Below are positions 5,548 to 15,019 of a stretch of 22,745 nucleotides of DNA, one piece after another. A program made the position numbers and the translations under genes. The stretch comes from a virus: IMG/VR virus record IMGVR_UViG_3300037961_002050, positions 1 to 22,745 of that record. The stretch is one strand, 5' to 3'. Below the pieces are notes generated by a model that saw only the letters and a program-made list of their open reading frames with translations, was not told the DNA's origin and made no database searches. How positions within the stretch are numbered: the stretch's first letter is position 1; each line of letters begins with the position of its first letter.

Positions 5548-5804
5548 AGGACCACTACGAAAAGAAAAGCGGCGAGACAATTGTCAAGGACGCCCTCGAC
5601 TTGCCCTCCGTGTTCATGCCCGACAACGGGTGCATCTTCAAGCCTGACCGCATGGAGGAGATGGGGTACACGCAATACCTCGACACCCAGCACCCTGACC
5701 GCGACTACATCACGCGGTGGTGGTTTCGTGGCGAACACAACCGAGACAGAGTAATTAAAGGCATCAAGGCACAAGGCTTTGAGGTCGTAACCATCGCCCC
5801 ATGA
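5544..5804 (+). CDS. Hypothetical protein, 86 residues
   Basis: Start GTG 5544 (GTGA overlap with the previous stop) gives an 86-residue product, preferred over longer out-of-frame-overlap alternatives. It contains many aromatic and charged residues (DYITRWWFRGEHNRDRV) and ends with a predicted beta-strand (GFEVVTIAP). An alpha/beta fold is likely. I do not recognise a family. It overlaps the next gene by ATGA, so it is part of the same translationally coupled early string. Confidence 0.55.
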   Translation: MKDHYEKKSGETIVKDALDLPSVFMPDNGCIFKPDRMEEMGYTQYLDTQHPDRDYITRWWFRGEHNRDRVIKGIKAQGFEVVTIAP

Positions 5805-6361
5805 AAGTCAGAAACGAACACCTTGGAATGGACAGCGACGGTATTCCTTTTGACCCCTTTGGTATGCGTGAAGCGTATGAGAGCCTTTGCGAAGCAGTCG
5901 ACCGAATAACAAAACCAGCGCAAAGGAGCGCACAAAATTCAATCAAAATGGCACAAGCCAAAATTACGCGGATTGAACCCGCAAACCCCCCAACGTGGCA
6001 AGGAAGCCACGGACTCATGTACGCCTTTGACGTCGAACTTGACGACGGCACTAACGGCTCCGTCAATTGCAAGACGCCGAACAAGTGGAACGTCGGTGAC
6101 GACGTGGAGTACACGGCGCAAAGCACGCACCACGGCACGAAGCTACGCCTCGACAAGCCGGGATTTAACGGTCTACCGAAACCTTTTGCAGGTGGTGGAT
6201 CGAACTCAGACAACACCAAGGGCATCATTGCTTCGTGGGCCGTCGGTGTGGCAATGCAAGTTGCGGACGCAAGCGCACCGAACTACGACCAACAGGTCAT
6301 GCAGTACGCACGGCTTGCGCTTGAGGCTCGTCGTCAAATCAAAAACGAGGTCGAGCCGTGA
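5801..6361 (+). CDS. OB-fold-like, possible single-stranded DNA-binding protein
   Basis: 186 residues from ATG 5801. Residues 50-120 (from MAQAKITRIEPANPP to the GTKLRLDKPGF region) show alternating beta-strands with GLMYAFDVELDDG and VGDDVEYTA. I associate this OB-like layout with Bacteroidota phage proteins annotated as single-stranded DNA-binding. The C-terminal part (IIASWAVGVAMQVADA) is helical and resembles the tail of such proteins. The first 49 residues look like a separate small module, and a second in-frame ATG lies at 5948 behind an A-rich stretch, so translation could also start there. A DNA-binding role near the replication genes is reasonable but not proven. Confidence 0.45.
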   Translation: MKVRNEHLGMDSDGIPFDPFGMREAYESLCEAVDRITKPAQRSAQNSIKMAQAKITRIEPANPPTWQGSHGLMYAFDVELDDGTNGSVNCKTPNKWNVGDDVEYTAQSTHHGTKLRLDKPGFNGLPKPFAGGGSNSDNTKGIIASWAVGVAMQVADASAPNYDQQVMQYARLALEARRQIKNEVEP

Positions 6362-6594
6362 GCGGTTGGAACTTTAAATGGAGCACAGGCCAGCCCAAGG
6401 ACGACGGCCTTTACATGGCATGCTGGCTACAAAAAGATGAAGGCCAAGAGAGGGTTCCATTCTACGCCCTGTTGAAATATAAGGGCGGGTGGAACATTCC
6501 GGGCTGGTCCGAAGCCCCGGACTACTGGATGGAGGTGACGCCACCTTCAGAGGACTTTGAACAAATGAAAGAATACGAAAACGCAACAACATGA
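6358..6594 (+). CDS. Small Trp-rich protein, DUF551-like
   Basis: GTG 6358 (GTGA overlap) starts a 78-residue protein rich in Trp, Tyr and Gly. The layout, with WSTGQPKDDGLYMACW near the start, KGGWNIPGW in the middle and DYWMEVTPP at the end, recalls the DUF551 pattern in which a Trp-rich beta protein ends in YWMPLP-like sequence. The match is loose and the family has no firm function. It lies between the OB-like protein and a Myb/SANT-like protein. Confidence 0.5.
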   Translation: MSGWNFKWSTGQPKDDGLYMACWLQKDEGQERVPFYALLKYKGGWNIPGWSEAPDYWMEVTPPSEDFEQMKEYENATT

Positions 6595-6845
6595 ACAAGC
6601 ACAACTCCCGATGGACTGAAGCCGACGAAAAACAAATGCTTCATCTCCACGCCCAAAGCAAAAGCCCAGCCGAAATGTCTAAGGTCATGGGTCGAACCTC
6701 TAAAGCCATCGCCCTGCGATTGAGCCAAAAGAACCTCAAGCCGTACCGCAAGCCGAAGCAGTCGGCCAAGTACACCAAGTACGTAAACGTCCCGCGCAAG
6801 ACGGTCAAGTGGTTTTGGGGTGCGCTTGAAATCACAAAGTTCTGA
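6591..6845 (+). CDS. SANT/Myb-like DNA-binding protein
   Basis: 84 residues, ATGA overlap with the previous gene. Residues 7-45 (SRWTEADEKQMLHLHAQSK, then EMSKVMGRTSKAIALRL) form the three-helix SANT/Myb-like pattern with a recognition helix RTSKAIALRL. A lysine-rich basic tail follows (KPYRKPKQSAKYTKY). It should bind DNA, either as a regulator of the early or middle genes or as an architectural protein. The dyad at 4411-4455 is one possible target, by inference only. Confidence 0.6.
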   Translation: MNKHNSRWTEADEKQMLHLHAQSKSPAEMSKVMGRTSKAIALRLSQKNLKPYRKPKQSAKYTKYVNVPRKTVKWFWGALEITKF

Positions 6846-7076: not shown

Positions 7077-7252
7077 GCGACAAAAAAATCGCACAAGGTT
7101 GGATTGACGGAGGGGGCTACGGCTCCCTCCCACCCAACTCGCACAAGAAAAGCAGTAAATACCACACGGGGCCGCAGAAAACGTACTACAAAGGCGTCAA
7201 AACGTGGGATCCTTGGAAGAAACGTTGGTGGGTTATTCAGACGTACCCATGA
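7073..7252 (+). CDS. Hypothetical basic protein, 59 residues
   Basis: ATG 7073 overlaps the previous stop by ATGA, and TGA 7250-7252 overlaps the methyltransferase ATG by ATGA. The 59-residue product is basic and aromatic, with a glycine-rich N-terminal stretch (GWIDGGGYGSLPP) and a Trp-rich end (WDPWKKRWWVI). It has no family I recognise. It likely bridges translation into the methyltransferase gene. Confidence 0.55.
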   Translation: MSDKKIAQGWIDGGGYGSLPPNSHKKSSKYHTGPQKTYYKGVKTWDPWKKRWWVIQTYP

Positions 7253-8133
7253 ATCACGGGTCATTATTTTCAGGAATCGGAGGTTTCGATCTTGCCGCGC
7301 AATGGGTTGGTTGGACAAACGTATTCAATTGCGAGTGGGAGGACTTTCCCCGCCGCGTACTTAAACATCATTTTCCACATGTCACGCAACACAAAGACAT
7401 CAGGGACCTCGACGCGACAACTTACGCTGGACGAGTTGATATTGTCAGCGGAGGGTTCCCCTGCCAACCATACAGCCTCGCCGGAAAGCGAAAGGGCAAA
7501 GACGACGAGCGCCACCTGTGGCCCGAGATGCTTAGGGTTGTTCGAGAATGCGCCCCGCGCTACGTCGTGGGCGAAAACGTTCGCGGGCTTGTTAGTTGGA
7601 ATGGAGGGATGGTCTTCGAGGAGGTGTGTACTGACTTGGAAGCTCTTGGGTACGCCGTTCAACCGTTCGTACTTCCGGCTTGCGGCGTCGGCGCCCCCCA
7701 CAGACGAGATAGAGTTTGGTTTGTTGCTCACACCGACCACAAGGGAGGAGGTGATGGACACGCAGAAGTTCAAGGAGCGCATGGAGAAGTACGACAACGG
7801 GACAACAGTGCCAAATTTGGCAACGCAAGTCGTCGGACTGCTACCAACGCCGACAGCCGACAACGCCAGCGACAGGACGAAAAATTACGCACAGGGAGGG
7901 ACGCCACTGCCGATGGCGATTCGCGCTCTCTTGCCAACTCCAACGGCGTACGACTGGAACACAGCGAGGAGTCCGGAGAAGTGGGACGAGTTCTCACAGG
8001 CGTTACGCACAAGCCGCTAAAGCAACTTGCTGGGACAAATTTCCAACTGTCGCCCCTGTTTGTGGAGGAGATGATGGGATTCCCGAGAAATTGGACGGCA
8101 TTACCTTTCCAAAGTGGCGACGAGAAAGCATAA
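7249..8133 (+). CDS. dcm: DNA cytosine-C5 methyltransferase, C-terminus frameshifted
   Basis: 294 residues as read from ATG 7249. Motif I FSGIGGFDL (7-15), motif IV GGFPCQPY with catalytic Cys72, motif VI ENV (109-111) and motif VIII GAPHRRDRVWF (148-158) are intact. These bind S-adenosylmethionine and form the covalent cytosine intermediate, giving 5-methylcytosine. Residues ~160-250 would be target recognition. The last ~35 codons read QLSPLFVEEMMGFP, which I associate with the overlapping +1-frame family. The expected Dcm end (ESIKAYGNAIVP, motif X) lies in frame at 8010-8219. A single missing base near 8005-8022 would restore a 323-residue enzyme. Without it the product lacks motif X and may be inactive. 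It probably supplies 5mC to the TET-like oxygenase at 11755. Confidence 0.85.
   Translation: MNHGSLFSGIGGFDLAAQWVGWTNVFNCEWEDFPRRVLKHHFPHVTQHKDIRDLDATTYAGRVDIVSGGFPCQPYSLAGKRKGKDDERHLWPEMLRVVRECAPRYVVGENVRGLVSWNGGMVFEEVCTDLEALGYAVQPFVLPACGVGAPHRRDRVWFVAHTDHKGGGDGHAEVQGAHGEVRQRDNSAKFGNASRRTATNADSRQRQRQDEKLRTGRDATADGDSRSLANSNGVRLEHSEESGEVGRVLTGVTHKPLKQLAGTNFQLSPLFVEEMMGFPRNWTALPFQSGDEKA
7292..8020 (+). other. Long +1-frame ORF inside dcm with periodic TPT motifs
   Basis: The +1 frame of dcm stays open for 242 codons (TTG 7292 to TAA 8018-8020). It contains three spaced motifs: LLLTPTT at 7721, LLPTPTA near 7838 and LLPTPTA near 7928. The same bases encode HTD, TNAD and ANSN in the dcm frame. 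Sequences with repeated LPTPTA followed by MMGFP are familiar to me from databases, usually as unnamed or methyltransferase-annotated proteins. I cannot tell whether this frame is translated or is a by-product of dcm codon constraints. It is listed as an overlapping ORF, not as a confirmed gene. Confidence 0.4.
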
Positions 8134-8219
8134 AGGCCTACGGCAACGCAATTGTACCACACGTGGCCTTGCAGATTTTTAAGGCGATTGAATCTTTGGA
8201 AAATGGAACGAGAATTTAA
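8010..8219 (+). pseudogene. Out-of-frame C-terminal segment of dcm (motif X)
   Basis: In the frame one base back from dcm, the sequence reads from about 8010 through CWDKFPTVAPVC and GGDDGIPEKLDGITFP to KWRRESIKAYGNAIVP, ending at TAA 8217-8219. The GNAIVP block is Dcm motif X, which packs against motif I to complete the cofactor site. The preceding FPTxxPVCGGDDG block is typical of this Bacteroidota methyltransferase group. Its stop overlaps the replication gene start by 17 bases, the same overlap seen at several other junctions here. This supports it as the true ancestral C-terminus, separated by a one-base change. Confidence 0.75.
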
Positions 8220-8892
8220 GGGCGTATGGATTCCAGCCGAAGTGTGGTTGGACACAAAGTTGACGTTGGTCGAAAAGGCATTGCTTGCTGAGATTGATTC
8301 GTTCACTGGTGCGGGCAAGAGCTTTCACAAGTCGAATGAAACAATACAAGTTGAATACGGCATTAGCCGTCCGACAATTTCAAAGGCCATCAAAAAACTT
8401 CAGGGCTTGGGGTACATCACATCGACATCAGACGGTCGCGTTCGTCACTTAGTCGTACAAGCAGACCGAAAAATTCTTACGGGCAGGGGGAAAGATTCTT
8501 TCGGGCAGACCGAAAAAACGTTTCGGGCAGAAGGAAAGAATAGTACCCCTACTAATACATTAGAGAGAACAAGTAAAAAAACAATCAAAGGGAGTAAGGC
8601 ACGCCCACAAAATTTGGACGAGGTTTTGGAAGCGTTCAAAGCCGTCGGCGCCGAGGAAGTAGACGCAATGCAGTTTTACGACTACTACTCGGCCAACGGT
8701 TGGACACAGGGCCGTGGCAAACCCATCAAGGACTGGAAGGCCGCCGCGCGCGGTTGGATTCGTAGAACACAACAATTCAAAGCAAATGAAAGACCTCGCA
8801 AAGGCACAACAACAACTGGCCCATCGGACGGCTCACTCATTGAGCAACATCTCCGCCGCCTCGCGGATGGATCCGGTACAGGCATGGCGTGA
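8203..8892 (+). CDS. DnaD-like replication initiation / replisome organizer protein
   Basis: 229 residues from ATG 8203 (MEREFKGVWIPAEVW). Residues 1-85 form a winged-helix domain (TLVEKALLAEIDSF; recognition helix SRPTISKAIKKL; wing GYITSTSDGRV) of the type at the front of phage replisome organizers. A low-complexity linker (88-135) follows. The C-terminal module FYDYYSANGWTQGRGKPIKDWKAAARGWIRR (158-188, quoted in parts: FYDYYSANGW, KDWKAAARGWIRR) is the conserved tail of DnaD/helix-turn-helix replication proteins. It should melt the origin and recruit helicase. The linker is encoded by four 22-bp DNA iterons, as in lambda O. Confidence 0.75.
   Translation: MEREFKGVWIPAEVWLDTKLTLVEKALLAEIDSFTGAGKSFHKSNETIQVEYGISRPTISKAIKKLQGLGYITSTSDGRVRHLVVQADRKILTGRGKDSFGQTEKTFRAEGKNSTPTNTLERTSKKTIKGSKARPQNLDEVLEAFKAVGAEEVDAMQFYDYYSANGWTQGRGKPIKDWKAAARGWIRRTQQFKANERPRKGTTTTGPSDGSLIEQHLRRLADGSGTGMA
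8455..8542 (+). repeat. Four tandem 22-bp iterons (probable origin of replication)
   Basis: Four head-to-tail copies start at 8455, 8477, 8499 and 8521, exactly 22 bases apart. The core is TTTCGGGCAGA in copies 3 and 4, TTACGGGCAG in copy 2 and GTACAAGCAGA in copy 1. Each core is followed by a GAAA-type A-rich half (for example CCGAAAAA in copies 1 and 3). Because 22 is not a multiple of 3, the encoded peptide does not repeat, so selection must act on the DNA. Two helical turns per unit fits side-by-side initiator binding. Confidence 0.75.
8531..8590 (+). other. AT-rich putative DNA unwinding element
   Basis: Directly after the iterons, 42 of 60 bases are A or T (70 percent), within an otherwise GC-richer operon. 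It is purine-rich on the + strand, with an A7 tract at 8575-8581. Iterons followed by an AT-rich stretch inside the initiator gene is the arrangement of the lambda origin. Confidence 0.5.
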
Positions 8893-9430
8893 AGGCGTTA
8901 ACGTTCAAGCCGCCTACAACAACCCTCAAACGCAAGCGGCGGTAGAAGCTACCTTGATTGCGATGGTCGCGAAGACGCTCCGGTACTTGGACTACTCCCG
9001 AACCATCACAGCCGACCAAGACATCATCGACGCTGTAGAACACTTGCGCCTTGAGTTCCCGGCCATGAAGCTCGAAGAATGGGCAATCATATTCCACCGG
9101 CTGAAGACGGGTCAATATCGTCCCGGTTACGAGCGTTTGAAGTTGCCTGAACTTGTGTCTATATTTCAGCAGTACGAAGGCGAACGCGCCGAGCGTCGCG
9201 AGGAAAATTGGGGTGAGTTAAAAAAGCACACACCAAACAACCTGAACGACGAGCAAGTGCAAGCCTTATACGCCAAATACGCACAACAACGCCGTGAAGC
9301 GATCGAAGCCGCTAAAAAGGAAACCGAAGTCAAGCACGTCCCAACGGACGAGCGAGGCCGGTGGAACTTCATCCCGTACCCGAACACGAAAGACAACGAA
9401 CCCGAGGGGGGCGATGGTCAAAAAGGTTGA
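8786..9430 (+). CDS. DUF6633-like replication accessory protein
   Basis: 214 residues from ATG 8786, overlapping the replication gene by 107 bases. ATG 8867 would cut the overlap to 26 bases and is a good alternative. The central region (TITADQDIIDAVEHLRLEFP, then LEEWAIIFHRLKTGQYRPGYERL, given in parts) matches a helical pattern I recall from DUF6633 proteins of Bacteroidota elements, with the YERL..PELVSIFQQYEGER end. These proteins sit beside DnaD-like genes, so a helicase-loader or accessory role is likely but unproven. A charged C-terminal tail follows. It overlaps the nuclease gene by 17 bases. Confidence 0.5.
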   Translation: MKDLAKAQQQLAHRTAHSLSNISAASRMDPVQAWREGVNVQAAYNNPQTQAAVEATLIAMVAKTLRYLDYSRTITADQDIIDAVEHLRLEFPAMKLEEWAIIFHRLKTGQYRPGYERLKLPELVSIFQQYEGERAERREENWGELKKHTPNNLNDEQVQALYAKYAQQRREAIEAAKKETEVKHVPTDERGRWNFIPYPNTKDNEPEGGDGQKG

Positions 9431-9797
9431 TGCGGTCTTCTCTCAATACGTGCGGCTCCGCGCGACAGACGACACAGGACACGGGGAGTGCTACACGTGC
9501 GGCTCGCGTCGGCATTGGTCAGAGGTTGATGCAGGGCACTTTATGTCTCGGGCTTGTATGTCTACCCGGTGGCACGAGGACAACGTGCAATTCCAGTGCA
9601 AGCGTTGTAATGGATTTAGGTCGGGTGAGCAATTTCTTTTTGCCCGCAACCTCGACGCTGAGTTTGGCGAAGGAAAGGCTGAGGAGTTATTCATCGAGTC
9701 CAAGCAAACGCGCAAGTGGACGCGCGCCGAGCTTGAACAAATGTATCACCACTATAAGCGCCTCGTCGATGAGCTCCGAAGCTCGAAAGGGATTTGA
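9414..9797 (+). CDS. NinG/Rap-like recombination nuclease
   Basis: 127 residues from ATG 9414. Zinc pairs CYTCG (Cys26, Cys29) and CKRCN (Cys62, Cys65) flank the conserved DAGHFMSRACMSTRWHEDN block (His42, His54), the signature of phage NinG proteins. Lambda NinG (Rap) is a structure-specific nuclease that cuts recombination junctions. The usual ~200-residue family is longer at the N-terminus, so this is a compact version. It sits among replication genes, as ninG does in lambdoid phages. It shares 29 bases with the sigma-like gene. Confidence 0.75.
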   Translation: MVKKVDAVFSQYVRLRATDDTGHGECYTCGSRRHWSEVDAGHFMSRACMSTRWHEDNVQFQCKRCNGFRSGEQFLFARNLDAEFGEGKAEELFIESKQTRKWTRAELEQMYHHYKRLVDELRSSKGI

Positions 9798-10257
9798 CGA
9801 GTGGTTCGTTGAGAACTACGACGACCTCGTCGCATCGGCTCGTGCGTTTCACCCGGACGGCTCCGATCTCGTCCACAATACCTACTTGCGAACCGTCGAC
9901 GCGCTTGAGCGCACCGGAAGGCCAATAGGCAAGTACAACGCATACTTCCGACAAGCCATGTGGACAGAGTCAACGCGAGGGGCTTTCAAATCGCTTTACA
10001 CGTACTTAGACGCCCCTCAAATAGAGTTGGCTAACCCCAGCCCCCAGCGCGACCCTTTCGAGGCCGAGAACGCGCTAATTTTGACTCGTCATTTAGCTTG
10101 GTTTGACCGAACTGTGCTTCAGCTTTACCTTGACGGCTACAACCTCCGTGAAGTAGCGAGACAATCAGGCATACCGCACACCACATTGTATCAATCTCTG
10201 CACCGAAGCAAAACAAAACTCCGCAATGTTCATCGTCAGCGCACAAACAAGGGCTAA
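9769..10257 (+). CDS. Sigma-70-family-like (ECF-type) transcription factor
   Basis: 162 residues from ATG 9769. Residues 10-60 resemble region 2 (DLVHNTYLRTVDALERTG, aromatic-rich KYNAYFRQAMW). Residues 125-155 are a clear region-4 helix-turn-helix (DGYNLREVARQSGIPHTTLY, then SKTKLRN). This layout is that of small phage-encoded sigma-like factors that could redirect host polymerase to late promoters. Core-binding residues of region 2 are only partly recognisable, so it may be a degenerate sigma or a late activator. It overlaps the next gene by 32 bases. Confidence 0.6.
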   Translation: MSSEARKGFDEWFVENYDDLVASARAFHPDGSDLVHNTYLRTVDALERTGRPIGKYNAYFRQAMWTESTRGAFKSLYTYLDAPQIELANPSPQRDPFEAENALILTRHLAWFDRTVLQLYLDGYNLREVARQSGIPHTTLYQSLHRSKTKLRNVHRQRTNKG

Positions 10258-10633
10258 CCGTCTCAACATTTGCCGCGAGTGCGAGCACTTTGTTGCATCT
10301 ACCAAAAGTTGTGGACCCCTCGTCACCGAGGCATTCACGGACTCGAAGTTGTGCGGCTGTCACATGCCAACGAAGACGCGCCTCAAGTGGGCCGAGTGTC
10401 CCTTAGGCAAGTGGGATGCGGTCATCACGGCCGAACAATTGGCAGAGGTCGAGGAGTTTCTCGACATTGTAAAAAGCAATCCCAAGTCATTGACAGATGG
10501 CGACCTTGCAGACATATACAATCGTGTGTTAGGCACGACACAACCCGCCTCCAATTGTAGCGCGTGCAACCGCAAAATGGTGCAAACCTTGAAAAAACTG
10601 ATAAATGAAAGCAAACGAAATACCGCCAAGTGA
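10226..10633 (+). CDS. Zinc-binding protein, DUF6171-like N-terminus
   Basis: 135 residues from ATG 10226. The N-terminal half holds CRECEHF (Cys16, Cys19), Cys29, CGC (Cys43, Cys45) and KWAECPLGKW (Cys58). This is the arrangement of a small phage zinc ribbon I know as DUF6171-like (CxxCEH...CGCxMxxKTRL...CPxGKW). The C-terminal half is helical (VEEFLDIVKSNPKSLTDGD) and has a second Cys pair (CSAC). Its role is unknown; it may bridge proteins or bind nucleic acid in the replication/transcription module. Confidence 0.65.
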   Translation: MFIVSAQTRANRLNICRECEHFVASTKSCGPLVTEAFTDSKLCGCHMPTKTRLKWAECPLGKWDAVITAEQLAEVEEFLDIVKSNPKSLTDGDLADIYNRVLGTTQPASNCSACNRKMVQTLKKLINESKRNTAK

Positions 10634-10961
10634 GTCCTTTTACCTTGCTGTGGGCAACCTCGCTCACGAGGGCGGCTACTTCATGAAAAATGATGAAGCC
10701 CTTAATCGTGCTCAGCGAGGCGTCGCCCGACTGGGGATTGACTGGTCTGATGTCGTTGGGCCAGTACGCCGTCGGCATTTGGTCGATGCCCGCAAAATGG
10801 TCAGCTACTTCCTACGTGAGCAGGGGTGGACGTTCAAAGAAATTGGAGAGGTGATGGACCGCGACCATGCAACGGCAATGCACCACACACGCACTTTGTT
10901 TCATTTGATGGAATACGAGAAAGAGACACGACGTCGATACATTGATTTTTGTAGCGCATGA
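10605..10961 (+). CDS. DnaA domain IV-like DNA-binding protein
   Basis: 118 residues from ATG 10605. Residues 55-98 (RRRHLVDARKMVSYFLRE, GWTFKEIGEVM, DRDHATAMHHTR) reproduce the C-terminal DNA-binding domain of DnaA, including the DHxTxxHH-type signature helix. There is no AAA+ domain, so this is DNA-binding only. It could compete with host DnaA, mark the phage origin or act as a regulator. I saw no perfect DnaA box in the window. It overlaps the gene before by 29 bases and the gene after by ATGA. Confidence 0.7.
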   Translation: MKANEIPPSESFYLAVGNLAHEGGYFMKNDEALNRAQRGVARLGIDWSDVVGPVRRRHLVDARKMVSYFLREQGWTFKEIGEVMDRDHATAMHHTRTLFHLMEYEKETRRRYIDFCSA

Positions 10962-11209
10962 CAAACAAACCTTTAACCTTCCGCAAGGCCAAACGCCTTT
11001 TGAATCAATGCGACGACTGGGTGCTGTTCACGTCGAAGAATAACAACGACGACACAGCTAACCTCGAGTGCGCCACCATGACTTCCACGTCATGGGCAAT
11101 CCTCATTGACTTCGCAACCGCAGACGAAAACTTTTACAATGCCCTTGAAACCATCCTCCACACGGCCCGTGACATACGCGAAAACGGCCAATCTGAAGAC
11201 GAATCCTAA
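10958..11209 (+). CDS. Hypothetical protein, 83 residues
   Basis: ATG 10958 (ATGA overlap) starts an 83-residue acidic protein with no recognised family. A central segment (LECATMTSTSWAILIDFAT) looks like two beta-strands and the C-terminus (NALETILHTARDIRENG) like a helix. It overlaps the ParB-like gene by about 41 bases if that gene starts at GTG 11169. Function not assigned. Confidence 0.6.
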   Translation: MTNKPLTFRKAKRLLNQCDDWVLFTSKNNNDDTANLECATMTSTSWAILIDFATADENFYNALETILHTARDIRENGQSEDES

Positions 11210-11771
11210 CAACCCGCGCGCAATTCGCAAGGATCAACTTGACAAGCTCGTCAAGAGCCTGAAGGAATTCCCTGAAATGCTCGAAGCTCGGCCTATTGTC
11301 ATCGACAAAGATGGCGTGGTGCTTGGCGGCAATATGCGTCTACAAGCGGCACAACGCGCCGGCCTCGAAGAAGTGCCTGTGTACGTGCGAGAATGGGACG
11401 AAGCCAAAGACAGTCAATTTGTTGTCAAGGACAATGTCAGTTTTGGTGAGTGGGACTGGGACATGTTGGCAAATGAATGGGAAGTAGACGACCTCAAGGA
11501 CTGGGGTTTGTACGTTCCAAAGTGGGACGACACAAACTTTGAAAGCGACATCGAGGACACAGGCGAATACGACTACCCGGAGGATCTTGTGCCAAACTCT
11601 CAGGTGCGTATGGTTCAATTGTTCATGAACAGCGAAACCGAGCCGGAATTCAAAAAGTGGGAACTGGCTTTGCGTGGCCCGCACGGTACAGACAATCTGA
11701 CCGACACCATCTACGAGGTGGTCAAGAAAGCGTATGAAGACGGATTCGAGCATTATGGCGAAGGTTCATAA
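11169..11771 (+). CDS. ParB-like (ParB/Srx fold) protein
   Basis: 200 residues from GTG 11169; the domain itself begins around 11187, and other starts (ATG 11139) are possible. Residues ~8-80 carry the ParB/Srx pattern: NPNNPRAIRKDQ, ARPIVIDKDG, VLGGNMRLQAAQRAG. The next block (FVVKDNVSFGEWDWDMLANE, WEVDDLKDWGL) is the linker seen in ParB-methyltransferase fusions, but no methyltransferase domain follows; the protein ends in a helical tail. It could bind DNA or a nucleotide and partner with a separate modifying enzyme. It overlaps the TET/JBP-like gene by 17 bases, suggesting a shared task. Confidence 0.7.
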   Translation: MTYAKTANLKTNPNNPRAIRKDQLDKLVKSLKEFPEMLEARPIVIDKDGVVLGGNMRLQAAQRAGLEEVPVYVREWDEAKDSQFVVKDNVSFGEWDWDMLANEWEVDDLKDWGLYVPKWDDTNFESDIEDTGEYDYPEDLVPNSQVRMVQLFMNSETEPEFKKWELALRGPHGTDNLTDTIYEVVKKAYEDGFEHYGEGS

Positions 11772-12651
11772 AGTCCGGCCGCGATTGACGGACGAGCAAA
11801 CCAAAAAGCTCTCCGGGACGTTGTTGACAGACAAGGACTACAACAAGCTATTTACGTCCGACGTTGATGTGTACGACGAGGAAACCGGCCAATGCATTGC
11901 GAAGTTTCGCAAGCGCGTCATACCATCAAACATTGCTGAAGCGGCCTATGAAAACCTTAAGAAGGCCGCCACGCCAACGAACAACAGAGGCACAAGCACA
12001 GGGACTTCAGATGGCAAAGGCAAAGTGTCGCACCACCGCGTGAAGAAGGATGGTACCATTTCAAACTCTACTGGCGCACATACAGCCGTCAACAGTGGCA
12101 TCATCGGTTTTTTTGACAGGAACGCGCGTTACCCATATTGTCGGCAAACGGCCTTCAACATCAATGAATTCGACAAGTTCAAGAAGGCGTACCCTATCAT
12201 CAAATTCGTAGACAGCCAGTACGAGAAACTGATGCCTGATCACTACGCCAAACAAAGGGCCGTGGCAGACAATACCTCAAGTGACTTCACAATTCACAAC
12301 ACGGCGTTCACAACGGTGACGGTCAACAAGAATTGGCAGACAGCCGTACACACTGACAAGGGTGACTTCGCCGAGGGTTTTGGCAACCTCGTTGTGCTTC
12401 GAAAAGGCAGGTACACGGGAGGCTACTTCGTATTGCCCAAATGGGGCGTGGCGTTCGATATGCAGAATTGTGATTTGCTCCTGACTGACGTTCACCAATG
12501 GCACGGCAACACACCAATACACAAAATCGACGAAGATGCAACGCGCGTCTCGCTGGTCATGTACTACCGTGAGAACATGATTCACTGCGGCACGGGAGAG
12601 GAGGAAGCGCAAATTGCCAAGCGGCGTCAAAAGGGAACACGGCTAACGTAA
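11755..12651 (+). CDS. TET/JBP-like 2-oxoglutarate/Fe(II) DNA dioxygenase
   Basis: 298 residues from ATG 11755. The C-terminal half has the double-stranded beta-helix core: AVHTDKGD gives the HxD iron ligands His199 and Asp201; LLTDVHQWHGNTP supplies the distal His (247 or 250); and Arg264 in ATRVSLVMYY fits the 2-oxoglutarate-binding Arg. The order NKNWQTAVHTDKGD, GGYFVLPKWGVAFD, HGNTP matches TET/JBP proteins, which hydroxylate the methyl group of 5mC or thymine in DNA. The N-terminal ~110 residues are extra, with a low-complexity Ser/Thr/Gly part near 75-90. The methyltransferase upstream points to 5mC as substrate; thymine remains possible. Confidence 0.8.
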   Translation: MAKVHKVRPRLTDEQTKKLSGTLLTDKDYNKLFTSDVDVYDEETGQCIAKFRKRVIPSNIAEAAYENLKKAATPTNNRGTSTGTSDGKGKVSHHRVKKDGTISNSTGAHTAVNSGIIGFFDRNARYPYCRQTAFNINEFDKFKKAYPIIKFVDSQYEKLMPDHYAKQRAVADNTSSDFTIHNTAFTTVTVNKNWQTAVHTDKGDFAEGFGNLVVLRKGRYTGGYFVLPKWGVAFDMQNCDLLLTDVHQWHGNTPIHKIDEDATRVSLVMYYRENMIHCGTGEEEAQIAKRRQKGTRLT

Positions 12652-13262
12652 TGTGTGGGGTCGTCGGGTTTTCGTGCGACGCGCCACAAGCCGCGCACTA
12701 CGAGTTGCTCAAACGCATCATGCGTGAAAGCAAGATTCGTGGGTTGCACAGCTTCGGAGTGGCGTACGTCGACGACGGCATCAAGGTCAACAAGGTCCAC
12801 GACCTCGACGAGCTTGACATACCTCAGGCCACGCGCATCATTTTCCACAACCGCTACTCGACAAGCGGGGACTACCTCGACCACGAGAACAACCAACCCT
12901 TGTCAAACAAGTCAACGGCGCTTGTATTTAACGGTGTCCTTGACATGCGTACAAAAGACGAAATGGAAGCCGCGTACAACGTCACTTTGTCGTGCGACAA
13001 TGACGGTGCGCTACTGCTCGAATTGTGCAATGACGACCCCGAGGAAATGTTGCAGTGGACGAAGGAACGCAACGCCAGTTTTGCTGGCTTGGTTTTAAGC
13101 TCGTCAAATGTGCTGACCGCCTTCCGCAATGCCAACCGTCCTTTGTGGCTGGCAACATACCAGGGCGGGCTATATTTCGCTTCGACAAGGGACATTTTCA
13201 TGAGGGCAGAACCGTCGTTGGATCCAATAGAACTCAAACCGGACACCCTCTATGCAGATTAG
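12651..13262 (+). CDS. Class II glutamine amidotransferase
   Basis: 203 residues; ATG shares one base with the previous TAA. The start MCGVVGF gives the N-terminal nucleophile Cys2 after Met removal. RGLHSFGVAY, HNRYSTSGDY (Arg68), ENNQPL, VFNGVLDM (Asn94-Gly95) and CDNDGALLLEL complete the GATase II set as in GlmS and PurF. It would release ammonia from glutamine. There is no synthetase or isomerase domain, so ammonia must go to a partner enzyme. Lying between a DNA dioxygenase and an AGPT-like transferase, it is a likely nitrogen donor for base modification; that is inference. Confidence 0.85.
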   Translation: MCGVVGFSCDAPQAAHYELLKRIMRESKIRGLHSFGVAYVDDGIKVNKVHDLDELDIPQATRIIFHNRYSTSGDYLDHENNQPLSNKSTALVFNGVLDMRTKDEMEAAYNVTLSCDNDGALLLELCNDDPEEMLQWTKERNASFAGLVLSSSNVLTAFRNANRPLWLATYQGGLYFASTRDIFMRAEPSLDPIELKPDTLYAD

Positions 13263-13656
13263 AAAAGCCATAGCCACCGACGCGGACTTCATTAAGAAGA
13301 TTCACAAGCAACACAAGGCACACATTGGTTCGTTCAACCTTTTTTGGAGTTGGGACCACTACCTTGACGGGACAAACAAAAGCAAGTTCTTTGTCATTGA
13401 AGGCGGTGGCTTCATGCGCTACTCGTATTCAAAAATGTACACGGCCTACATCTTGCATGAGATAGGCGTCGACAATGAGACGACACGCAAGGGCGTCGGC
13501 CGAGCATTATTTGAAGCCCTCCCGCGCCCCTTGATGCTCAAGTGCAATGTTGACAACGACCGGGGCAATGCGTTTTACGAAGCAATGGGGATGACCAAAA
13601 TGGGAAAGACGGCTACGAAGAAAGGCGTCGAGCAAAACGTATGGTGGATTACCTGA
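13252..13656 (+). CDS. GNAT-family N-acetyltransferase
   Basis: 134 residues from ATG 13252, overlapping the amidotransferase by 11 bases. Motif A is visible as LHEIGVDNETTRKGVGRALF (RKGVGRA is the acetyl-CoA pyrophosphate loop) and motif B as NDRGNAFYEAMGM. GNAT enzymes move an acetyl group from acetyl-CoA to an amine. In this operon the likely acceptor is an amino group placed on the modified base, as proposed for GNATs in other phage hypermodification clusters. A protein or small-molecule target cannot be ruled out. It overlaps the next gene by 16 bases. Confidence 0.8.
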   Translation: MQIRKAIATDADFIKKIHKQHKAHIGSFNLFWSWDHYLDGTNKSKFFVIEGGGFMRYSYSKMYTAYILHEIGVDNETTRKGVGRALFEALPRPLMLKCNVDNDRGNAFYEAMGMTKMGKTATKKGVEQNVWWIT

Positions 13657-14510
13657 CATACCACGTCGAGTCGTCCAAGGCGAAAGACATCGACCCAAGC
13701 AACGACGCCCTGCGGTATGTCGCAGATCGTTTCGAGCTTAATGTCGAACAACGCTACTGGCTTGCATTCCTTTTTGGCACGTGCTACTCGGCAACAAACG
13801 TCTACTACATCTACAATGAGTTCCCGGACTACGAAAATGTAGACGTCGGTCGACTTCAAAGGTGGTGGGACACGAATCGCGACCGCACATTGTTTCAAAC
13901 TGACCGCCTCCGCGTCAAGACGCAAAACAGGTTCGTCGAAACGTTTGTCAGCTACCGCGACCTGCTCAACGGCATGACGCAAGAAGAATACTTTGAGGGG
14001 CTAAAGCAACCGACGCGACAAAACACGTATGACAACGCCTTCCGTGACTTGTCAGGCATTCGCAACTTCGGGCGCTTCACAATGTTCATTTATCTTGAGA
14101 TGGTCAACGTGTTGACAGGCTTTGATCTCGAGCCAACACACCTTGACCTCGCCAATGCCGAAAGTTGTCGCAACGGCCTCGTGTATCACCTCGGAAAGAT
14201 GGAGCTCGACACACACGGGAAGAAAACAAGGTTGACAAAGAAGCAACTCGGCTACCTTCAATACGAGTTTCAAATGTTGAAGTCACACGTCGGAACTTAC
14301 GACATTGCACACCGCAACATTTGGAACATTGAAACAACCCTGTGCGCCTACAAGAAGTACCGACGCGGCAAGAGGTACGTCGGCTACTACATTGAACGTA
14401 TGCGAAAGGAAATAAACAAGATGGAAGGCAACGTGCCAACGGGCGTTGATTGGTCTGTCCTGTGGGACTTCCGACGCGAAACCTACGACCCGAAATGGCT
14501 CAACGAATAA
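13641..14510 (+). CDS. AGPT-pyrophosphorylase-like protein (HMUDK-helical type)
   Basis: 289 residues from ATG 13641, all-helical. Key stretches are VEQRYWLAFLFGTCYSATNV (35-54), GIRNFGRFTMFIYLEMV (139-155), DLANAESCRNGLVYHLG (169-185) and a basic C-terminal region (YKKYRRGKRYVGYYIERMR). I recognise these as the alpha-glutamyl/putrescinyl thymine pyrophosphorylase group, also seen as the helical domain beside hydroxymethyluracil DNA kinases. The family is proposed to replace the phosphorylated hydroxymethyl of a DNA base with an amine. Immediate overlap (16 bases) with the P-loop DNA kinase is the expected partnership. Confidence 0.7.
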   Translation: MVDYLTYHVESSKAKDIDPSNDALRYVADRFELNVEQRYWLAFLFGTCYSATNVYYIYNEFPDYENVDVGRLQRWWDTNRDRTLFQTDRLRVKTQNRFVETFVSYRDLLNGMTQEEYFEGLKQPTRQNTYDNAFRDLSGIRNFGRFTMFIYLEMVNVLTGFDLEPTHLDLANAESCRNGLVYHLGKMELDTHGKKTRLTKKQLGYLQYEFQMLKSHVGTYDIAHRNIWNIETTLCAYKKYRRGKRYVGYYIERMRKEINKMEGNVPTGVDWSVLWDFRRETYDPKWLNE

Positions 14511-15019
14511 TTGCCATTGGTGGCACGCCCGGAAGCGGGAAGACCACCCTCATGCTCAAGGTTCTCGACAACTTCAAGGGCAAACTACGCACCTTCAGTT
14601 ACAAGAACCTTCGAGGAATGCATAGCAAGGAAGACAACCTCTACATCCTCGGGGTCTATGATGGATCGACATTTAGCGGCACGGACAAACTCGCGATGAA
14701 TGTCTTTCCGCACTTCACGTCGTTTCTGTCAAAGGTGCCCGAGGCCGTAGTATTGTTTGAAGGCAACCGCCTGTTTGTGCCGAAGCTGTTCGACAACCAC
14801 GAGTGCGACATCTTAGTAGTCCGCGCCGACAGCGACCTCATTGAGCAACGGTTTGTCAATCGTGGGAGCAACCAGCCGGAACGTTTCTTGAAGGCGGTGA
14901 AAACCAAGACAGAGCGTATCATTGCAAAGTACCCTTCGACAATCCTACACAACAACAACGAGGAAGACCTCGAAAGTAACACACAACACATTTTGAGCTT
15001 GATTCATGAACAAAACTGA
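14495..15019 (+). CDS. Hydroxymethylpyrimidine DNA kinase-like P-loop protein
   Basis: 174 residues from ATG 14495. Walker A is GGTPGSGKTT (residues 9-18). YILGVYDGSTFSGTDKLAMN and VVLFEGNRLFVPKLF follow in the order I know from the 5-hydroxymethyluracil DNA kinases of phages with hypermodified thymine. The enzyme would phosphorylate the hydroxymethyl group of a base already in DNA, activating it for the AGPT-like transferase encoded just before. With a TET-like enzyme as the source of hydroxymethyl, 5hmC is the most economical substrate, though 5hmU is possible. It overlaps terS by 14 bases. Confidence 0.75.
   Translation: MAQRIIAIGGTPGSGKTTLMLKVLDNFKGKLRTFSYKNLRGMHSKEDNLYILGVYDGSTFSGTDKLAMNVFPHFTSFLSKVPEAVVLFEGNRLFVPKLFDNHECDILVVRADSDLIEQRFVNRGSNQPERFLKAVKTKTERIIAKYPSTILHNNNEEDLESNTQHILSLIHEQN

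Follow-up and report, generated by a model that had tools for sequence, protein, structure and literature searches.

Why do the conserved motifs of a phage methyltransferase gene change reading frame shortly before its end, and why does a second open reading frame (ORF), nested in this gene, change at the same place? The question is raised by a linear virus record of IMG/VR, IMGVR_UViG_3300037961_002050, the 22,745 bases of which are called here the window. The dcm ORF of the window has the motifs of a C5 methyltransferase, and the nested ORF in the +1 frame, called LPT, carries cassettes with the motif LPTP. An earlier note on this DNA proposed that one event had broken both ORFs. Judging by our sequence comparisons, the two nested genes most likely make up one C5 methyltransferase written in two frames, which is broken in the window by an ordinary mutation or an assembly error.

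Both Nested Frames Are Broken in the Window

Three-frame translation places the dcm motifs I–VIII in frame 1, from 7249 to about 7737. The catalytic core of the PF00145 family is thus present with these motifs, and the dcm family profile matches M.HhaI up to motif VIII. The usual dcm end, GIPEKLDG...SIKAYGNAIVP, is read in frame 3 at 8076–8216, which puts motif X out of frame with the catalytic chain; it is in frame in 100/102 copies of the gene. The LPT tail QLSPLFVEEMMGFPRNW is read in frame 1, within 8044–8121. The PHROGs profiles give the same picture. The phrog_363 profile matches frame 1 up to profile position 282 and then frame 3 at 285–318, and phrog_1008 matches frame 2 at profile positions 23–178 and then frame 1 at 244–282. 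Thus, the dcm and LPT frames both change by −1 (mod 3) near their 3′ ends, and downstream of this change each tail can be read through to its own stop. The earlier note had described this layout correctly: upstream, dcm motifs in one frame and LPTPT motifs in the +1 frame; downstream, the dcm end one frame lower and the LPT end in the dcm frame. As it also predicted, the frame 1 product, which ends at 8133, has no motif X. The truncated LPT ORF consists of an N-terminal part and three cassettes, and ends ahead of a tail similar to motif IX. Most likely, the shift has removed motif X from the dcm protein and motif IX from the LPT protein.

To place the shift, we compared the residues of the last cassette with its family by eye. 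SPE (7970–7978), W (7982) and AL (8000–8005) fit the family in frame 2, and KPLKQLA fits it in frame 1 from 8011. Therefore, the shift lies within 7979–8010, most likely at 8006–8010. The earlier note had proposed one lost base, or two gained, between about 8005 and 8022. The equal shift of −1 (mod 3) in both frames agrees with this, but the two intervals overlap only in part, ours lying slightly further upstream. The distance from SPE to KPLKQ is 41 nucleotides (nt) in the window versus 51 nt in 18 and 60 nt in 3 of the 21 cassettes of the same type, when the K of KPLKQ is aligned with the N of NPLKQ in relatives. Hence the event need not have been one base and was possibly larger; only the remainder of −1 (mod 3) is certain of its size.

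Is this arrangement the normal state of the family? Two scans of viral contigs, with some contigs common to both, kept 80 of 85 and 80 of at least 589 relatives. The frames of four marker pieces were compared in 161 loci, and dropping identical regions and copies cut by a contig end left 102 distinct complete copies; both numbers include the window. It turned out that in 99/102 copies dcm and LPT are each open in their own frame without an internal stop. Two copies, the window and L144, are shifted. In L144 (about 1187–2052) the shift has the same sign and is found at another place, by eye near the start of the last cassette. A like shift thus occurs in 1/101 copies other than the window. The clean copies indicate that the window carries a lesion and does not represent the normal state of the family. 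This comparison with homologous genes had been suggested in the earlier note, and it supports the view expressed there that programmed frameshifting is hardly the cause and that a mutation or an assembly error is. In a further copy, L049 (from 2853), dcm codon 19 is TGA where relatives have Trp; it may be a nonsense mutation, an error or a TGA read as Trp.

The Nested LPT Frame Is Under Selection

We then considered the LPT frame itself. In 98/100 unshifted copies the LPT ATG lies 130–175 nt past the dcm ATG (the searched range was 120–180 nt); L049 and L054 were left out, and the other 98 copies were used for the LPT analyses. Across the dcm core the +1 frame is open in 98/98 copies, although this figure is partly due to selection of copies for having an LPT start; in 200 shuffles of synonymous codons it is open in 12.1 copies on average and in 19 of 98 at most. 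The count of differences by codon position shows that both frames are constrained in the dcm core, with the fewest differences where both frames would change.

The cassettes behave differently. Of seven cassette patterns tried, one matched nothing and six gave countable types. We counted only the commonest length of each type and excluded pairs more than 25% apart from the difference counts; one of the six types gave no pair counts, and non-majority counts only were used for it. The TREEVMD cassettes (35 distinct sequences) have 2831 differences at LPT position 3 versus 739 and 362 at the other two positions, and their identity is 0.82 in the LPT frame, compared with 0.44 for dcm and 0.45 for the third frame, which is unused. 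For the DxNT cassettes (17 sequences) the differences are 220 versus 33 and 9, and the identities are 0.75, 0.41 and 0.43, respectively. The four smaller types, with 5 or 6 sequences each, follow the same pattern, and the type of the first window cassette also differs mostly at LPT third positions. In the LPT tail both frames are constrained, LPT more than dcm (identity 0.81 vs 0.68; third frame 0.60). Thus, the LPT frame is under selection, and in the variable region only the LPT frame is. A recognition region in the same chain, as expected of a PF00145 member, was not found: in the six countable types the variable region is constrained in the LPT frame.

The nested arrangement is not restricted to viral contigs. 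A scan of bacterial genomes with the LPT profile found LPT in the +1 frame of dcm in 80/80 loci (the best 80 of 131 relatives; 77 have the dcm start, and 3 were judged on the part of dcm present). Since these loci were found by similarity to nested copies, this number does not measure the frequency of other arrangements.

LPT Corresponds to the Second Half of Single-Chain Methyltransferases

We examined the arrangement in twelve phage records picked from match lists. In the Mycobacterium phages DillTech15 and prophi91-4, motifs I–VIII, the LPTP cassettes, the tail motif (RLAAAFPEWMMGWPAGW in DillTech15) and motif X belong to one protein in one frame. In Ovechkin, Colucci and Samy the enzyme is divided between two genes, the first with motifs I–VIII and the second with the cassettes followed by the tail motif and motif X. 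Nesting of LPT with its tail in the +1 frame is found in the Bacteroides phage BKO1-TP3 and in Spikelee, Lily and ABMM1; the Lily annotation lists LPT as 'g62 internal gene'. The phrog_1008 profile matches DillTech15 residues 247–446 (profile 130–326, E-value (E) 3e-76). Other matches of this profile are the separate second gene in Samy and in Ovechkin, the internal gene of Lily and the LPT of L010, where the best stretch is profile 34–171. Together with the single-chain phages, these matches indicate that LPT corresponds to the half of the enzyme with the recognition region. At the level of protein similarity, LPT is shown to be homologous to the second half of single-chain C5 methyltransferases.

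In Samy (L301, 1338–2679) the second gene is annotated from 1930, and its frame is open from 1561 with an apparent LPT N-terminal part. The annotated start may therefore be wrong.

LPT could not be assigned to any Pfam, NCBIfam, PADLOC or PDB family; the NCBIfam and PADLOC searches covered three LPT proteins, and PDB was searched with the LPT profile. When 66 LPT members were scanned against Pfam, PF00145 was absent among the 11 families matched. The commonest match, PF00846, was found in 9/66 members with a best E of 0.00077 and was taken as chance.

The LPT Tail as Probable Motif IX

The earlier note did not connect the LPT tail with the methyltransferase motifs. A 27-column profile of the tail matches DillTech15, prophi91-4, Ovechkin, Colucci and Samy just ahead of motif X (E 1e-5 to 8e-3, 10 proteins). 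For comparison with canonical enzymes we took 59 loci, set aside 17 with LPT and used the 38 distinct enzymes with a recognisable motif X. The best match of the tail profile falls 5–60 residues ahead of motif X in 16/38 of them, and in 0–5/38 for 20 column-shuffled controls. Comparison of profiles with each other gave one match, LPT tail to motif IX, with P 0.027. Taken together, these data make motif IX of this enzyme the most likely identity of the LPT tail.

Structure models were built for both proteins. The intact L010 dcm protein was modelled with AlphaFold from 60 aligned sequences. In this model 101 residues score 90 or more, the motif X helix is confident, and nearly all residues of the stretch 166–259 are below 50. 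Among solved structures the best match to this protein is M.HhaI, over about 165 columns, which correspond to the large domain without the small one.

The Proposed Enzyme and the Origin of the Lesion

In the enzyme that we propose, the dcm frame would encode the catalytic subunit with motifs I–VIII and X, and the middle of this protein would be a passenger reading of the cassettes. The +1 frame would encode the recognition subunit, LPT, with its N-terminal part, the LPTP cassettes and motif IX. The cassettes may act as exchangeable target-recognition modules that choose the target, and related phages, such as that of the window and L052, would exchange whole blocks of them. The dcm and LPT proteins would assemble into a single active methyltransferase. 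In the window, a net indel of −1 (mod 3) in the last cassette would yield a catalytic chain with a stray motif IX and no motif X, and a recognition chain without motif IX. Since both motifs are lost from their proteins, the window enzyme is probably dead. We infer that LPT is translated, that two subunits assemble, that the cassettes recognise DNA and that activity is lost.

Several observations weigh against this proposal. No ribosome-binding site is evident in the sequence ahead of the LPT start at 7379. Because of L144, shifted copies occur twice in 102. No single score of the tail profile against canonical enzymes is significant (best 1.6 bits, E 0.65), some column-shuffled controls scored up to 4.0, and 3 of the 16 matches in the zone are by eye unlike motif IX. 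As some controls scored higher, the evidence for motif IX in canonical enzymes is position and not score. The hhalign probability of the match between the LPT tail and motif IX is 1.8%. The AlphaFold model of LPT alone is poor (predicted local distance difference test score, pLDDT, 54; predicted template modelling score, pTM, 0.22), and thus no fold supports the role of LPT. Such a model might be expected of a subunit that needs its partner, or might result from too little sequence diversity. Finally, in Gordonia phage SchottB the cassettes are in the +1 frame, and the dcm frame carries both the tail motif and motif X. Therefore, the division of motifs between the frames is not universal.

The same placement of the tail motif and motif X is seen in Darolandstone and Raleigh, which may resemble SchottB (these three are records L305, L308 and L312).

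What caused the lesion? A recent mutation and an assembly or sequencing error are about equally credible, and each by itself falls a little short of an even chance. In the case of an error, the phage would have an intact pair, and the contig would have lost or gained bases. It fits with this that the dcm and LPT tails have no second lesion and that the neighbouring ORFs are whole: those at 5783–6358, 6561–6842, 8663–9427, 9246–9794 and 10157–10630 match relatives in one frame over nearly their whole length (coverage was pooled over hits, and L052 is the best relative for most of them). In addition, the site is in a repeat-bearing block that varies between related phages, and mixed strains would be hard to assemble there. 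However, as the earlier note had seen, there is no homopolymer at the site; GGG (7983) and AAA (8019) are the only base runs in 7961–8030. Nor was an intact version of the same phage found: the exact 40-base pattern is unmatched in the viral contigs, a set from which the nearest records are possibly missing.

A real recent mutation, for example an imprecise exchange of cassettes, would have inactivated the enzyme in the window phage. The DNA similarity between the window and L052 stops at 7739 (87.7% identity) and restarts at 8040 (78.2%), and the gap without reported similarity is 300 nt in the window vs 298 nt in L052. The shift sits in this exchanged block, yet the block makes up about a third of the gene. 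The shift of L144 is also in the cassette region, by eye near a cassette start, and the window cassette is 10 nt shorter between two anchors than 18/21 cassettes of its type. Against this origin, there are two cases only.

It is also conceivable, at a low probability, that LPT is an overprinted protein with another task, such as a regulator or an anti-restriction protein, and stands outside the methyltransferase. Its lack of a Pfam, NCBIfam, PADLOC or PDB family would suit this, but in single-chain methyltransferases the same segment makes up the second half and precedes motif X. It is quite improbable that the window has a working new arrangement with motif IX in the dcm chain, as in SchottB. 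Past the shift the tail motif is indeed in the dcm frame, but motif X shares this frame in SchottB, and in the window it lies in frame 3 and no longer shares a frame with motifs I–VIII. Programmed −1 frameshifting that restores both proteins is the least probable, for although a −1 shift in the interval would restore both tails and frame 3 is open from 7755 to 8216, 7961–8030 has no X-XXY-YYZ slippery heptamer (which the earlier note had also remarked), 100/102 copies need no shift, and neither a slippery site nor an arrangement kept in relatives was found.

Other Genes of the Window

The features of the locus and of a more distant cluster are listed in Table 1. The cluster, at 11734–15016, resembles DNA hypermodification genes. 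Among the 33 records with a related dcm/LPT pair, some of which may be fragments, TET or ADDT is present in one, the window. It is therefore no family trait in that sample, and a tie between the dcm/LPT family and TET/JBP hypermodification was rejected. If the TET enzyme here acts on 5-methylcytosine from the window enzyme, a broken methyltransferase would matter. Small genes at 10605–10958 and 11106–11768 have domains similar to the DnaA C-terminus and the ParB N-terminus.

Table 1. Positions of the dcm/LPT features and of other genes in the window.
Feature	Position	Strand	Remarks
dcm-frame ORF as it stands	7249..8133	+	frame 1; ATG 7249, stop 8131-8133; PF00145, E 7e-43, residues 2-171
LPT ORF as it stands	7379..8020	+	frame 2 (+1 to dcm); stop 8018-8020; phrog_1008, E 9e-19
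Cassette 1 (LLTPTTREEVMD...PNLATQVVG)	7724..7837	+	LPT-frame reading; type present in 38/98 LPT proteins
Cassette 2 (LLPTPTADNASDRTKNYAQGGTPLPMAIRA)	7838..7927	+	sequence only
Cassette 3 (LLPTPTAYDWNTARSPE...), holds the frame shift	7928..8039	+	type matched 21 times in relatives
Frame-shift interval	7979..8010	+	between last frame-2 and first frame-1 residues fitting the cassette family, by eye
Exchanged cassette block	7740..8039	+	no DNA similarity reported to L052, a syntenic relative
Motif IX-like LPT tail QLSPLFVEEMMGFPRNWTALPFQSGD	8044..8121	+	shifted into the dcm frame (frame 1)
dcm C-terminus with motif X (SIKAYGNAIVP)	8076..8219	+	now in frame 3; stop 8217-8219
Next gene, replication-initiation/DnaD-like	8203..8892	+	phrog_270, phrog_186; 17 nt overlap with the dcm end
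TET/JBP oxygenase	within 11734..15016		PF12851, E 2.7e-29; other annotation: queuine transferase-like
Amino acid:DNA transferase (ADDT)	within 11734..15016		PF18724, E 2e-18
Glutamine amidotransferase	within 11734..15016		
GNAT acetyltransferase	within 11734..15016		just below cut-off
P-loop nucleotide kinase	within 11734..15016		just below cut-off

Relation to Known Systems and Significance

Split C5 methyltransferases are already known; what sets the window family apart is a variable region constrained in a nested frame, and the lesion itself is ordinary. In the multispecific C5 methyltransferases of Bacillus phages, the variable region of a single chain contains recognition modules in tandem, each about 40 residues long. 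They have tandem variable-region modules in common with the window family and differ from it in being one chain in one frame.

The closest likeness is to the two-polypeptide enzyme M.EcoHK31I. Lee is said to have reported in 1995 that its small polypeptide is encoded in another frame inside the gene of the large one. According to PMC3404938, this enzyme, which recognises YGGCCR, has motifs I–VIII and X on the larger subunit and only motif IX on the smaller one, and its predicted recognition domain is in the larger subunit. Motif IX on the second polypeptide and motifs I–VIII and X on the first are likewise found in unshifted homologues of the window pair, where motif IX is assigned by similarity, and this division is broken in the window. 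In contrast to M.EcoHK31I, the window family has a constraint in the nested frame only and exchangeable cassettes. Samy, Ovechkin and Colucci look like the M.AquI type. M.AquI has both motifs IX and X on its smaller subunit, whereas the window family has nested genes and keeps motif X in the dcm frame (100/102 copies); a second chain with both of these motifs was not found there.

LPT matches PHROG 1008, but the label of this family, 'DNA methyltransferase', says nothing about the nesting or about which part of the enzyme is meant. The one paper found under this term names, in the text retrieved, phrog_10089 and not 1008. Out-of-frame HNH genes in phage methylases also encode a second protein in another frame within a gene (PMC11855218). 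Unlike LPT, they are, as described there, inserted, probably homing elements outside the methyltransferase. No description of the dcm/LPT overlap was found in one open-access literature collection, judged by its listings.

The lesion itself is of little weight, and the two-frame gene behind it is worth study. We consider it likely that this gene belongs to a widespread class of phage and bacterial C5 methyltransferases in which the recognition half is nested in the second frame of the catalytic gene. Specificity would be changed by swapping whole cassettes of roughly 25–40 codons, which would have to be readable in two frames simultaneously, and in evolution this half would exist in the same frame, as a following gene or nested. 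If the overlap reading is true, what is annotated in phages as a single methyltransferase gene encodes an enzyme of two proteins; the second protein would be lost on recoding the annotated ORF, and the specificity of methylation would have to be sought in a frame that annotations seldom show. Exchangeable cassettes would then offer a testable code from cassette to target sequence.
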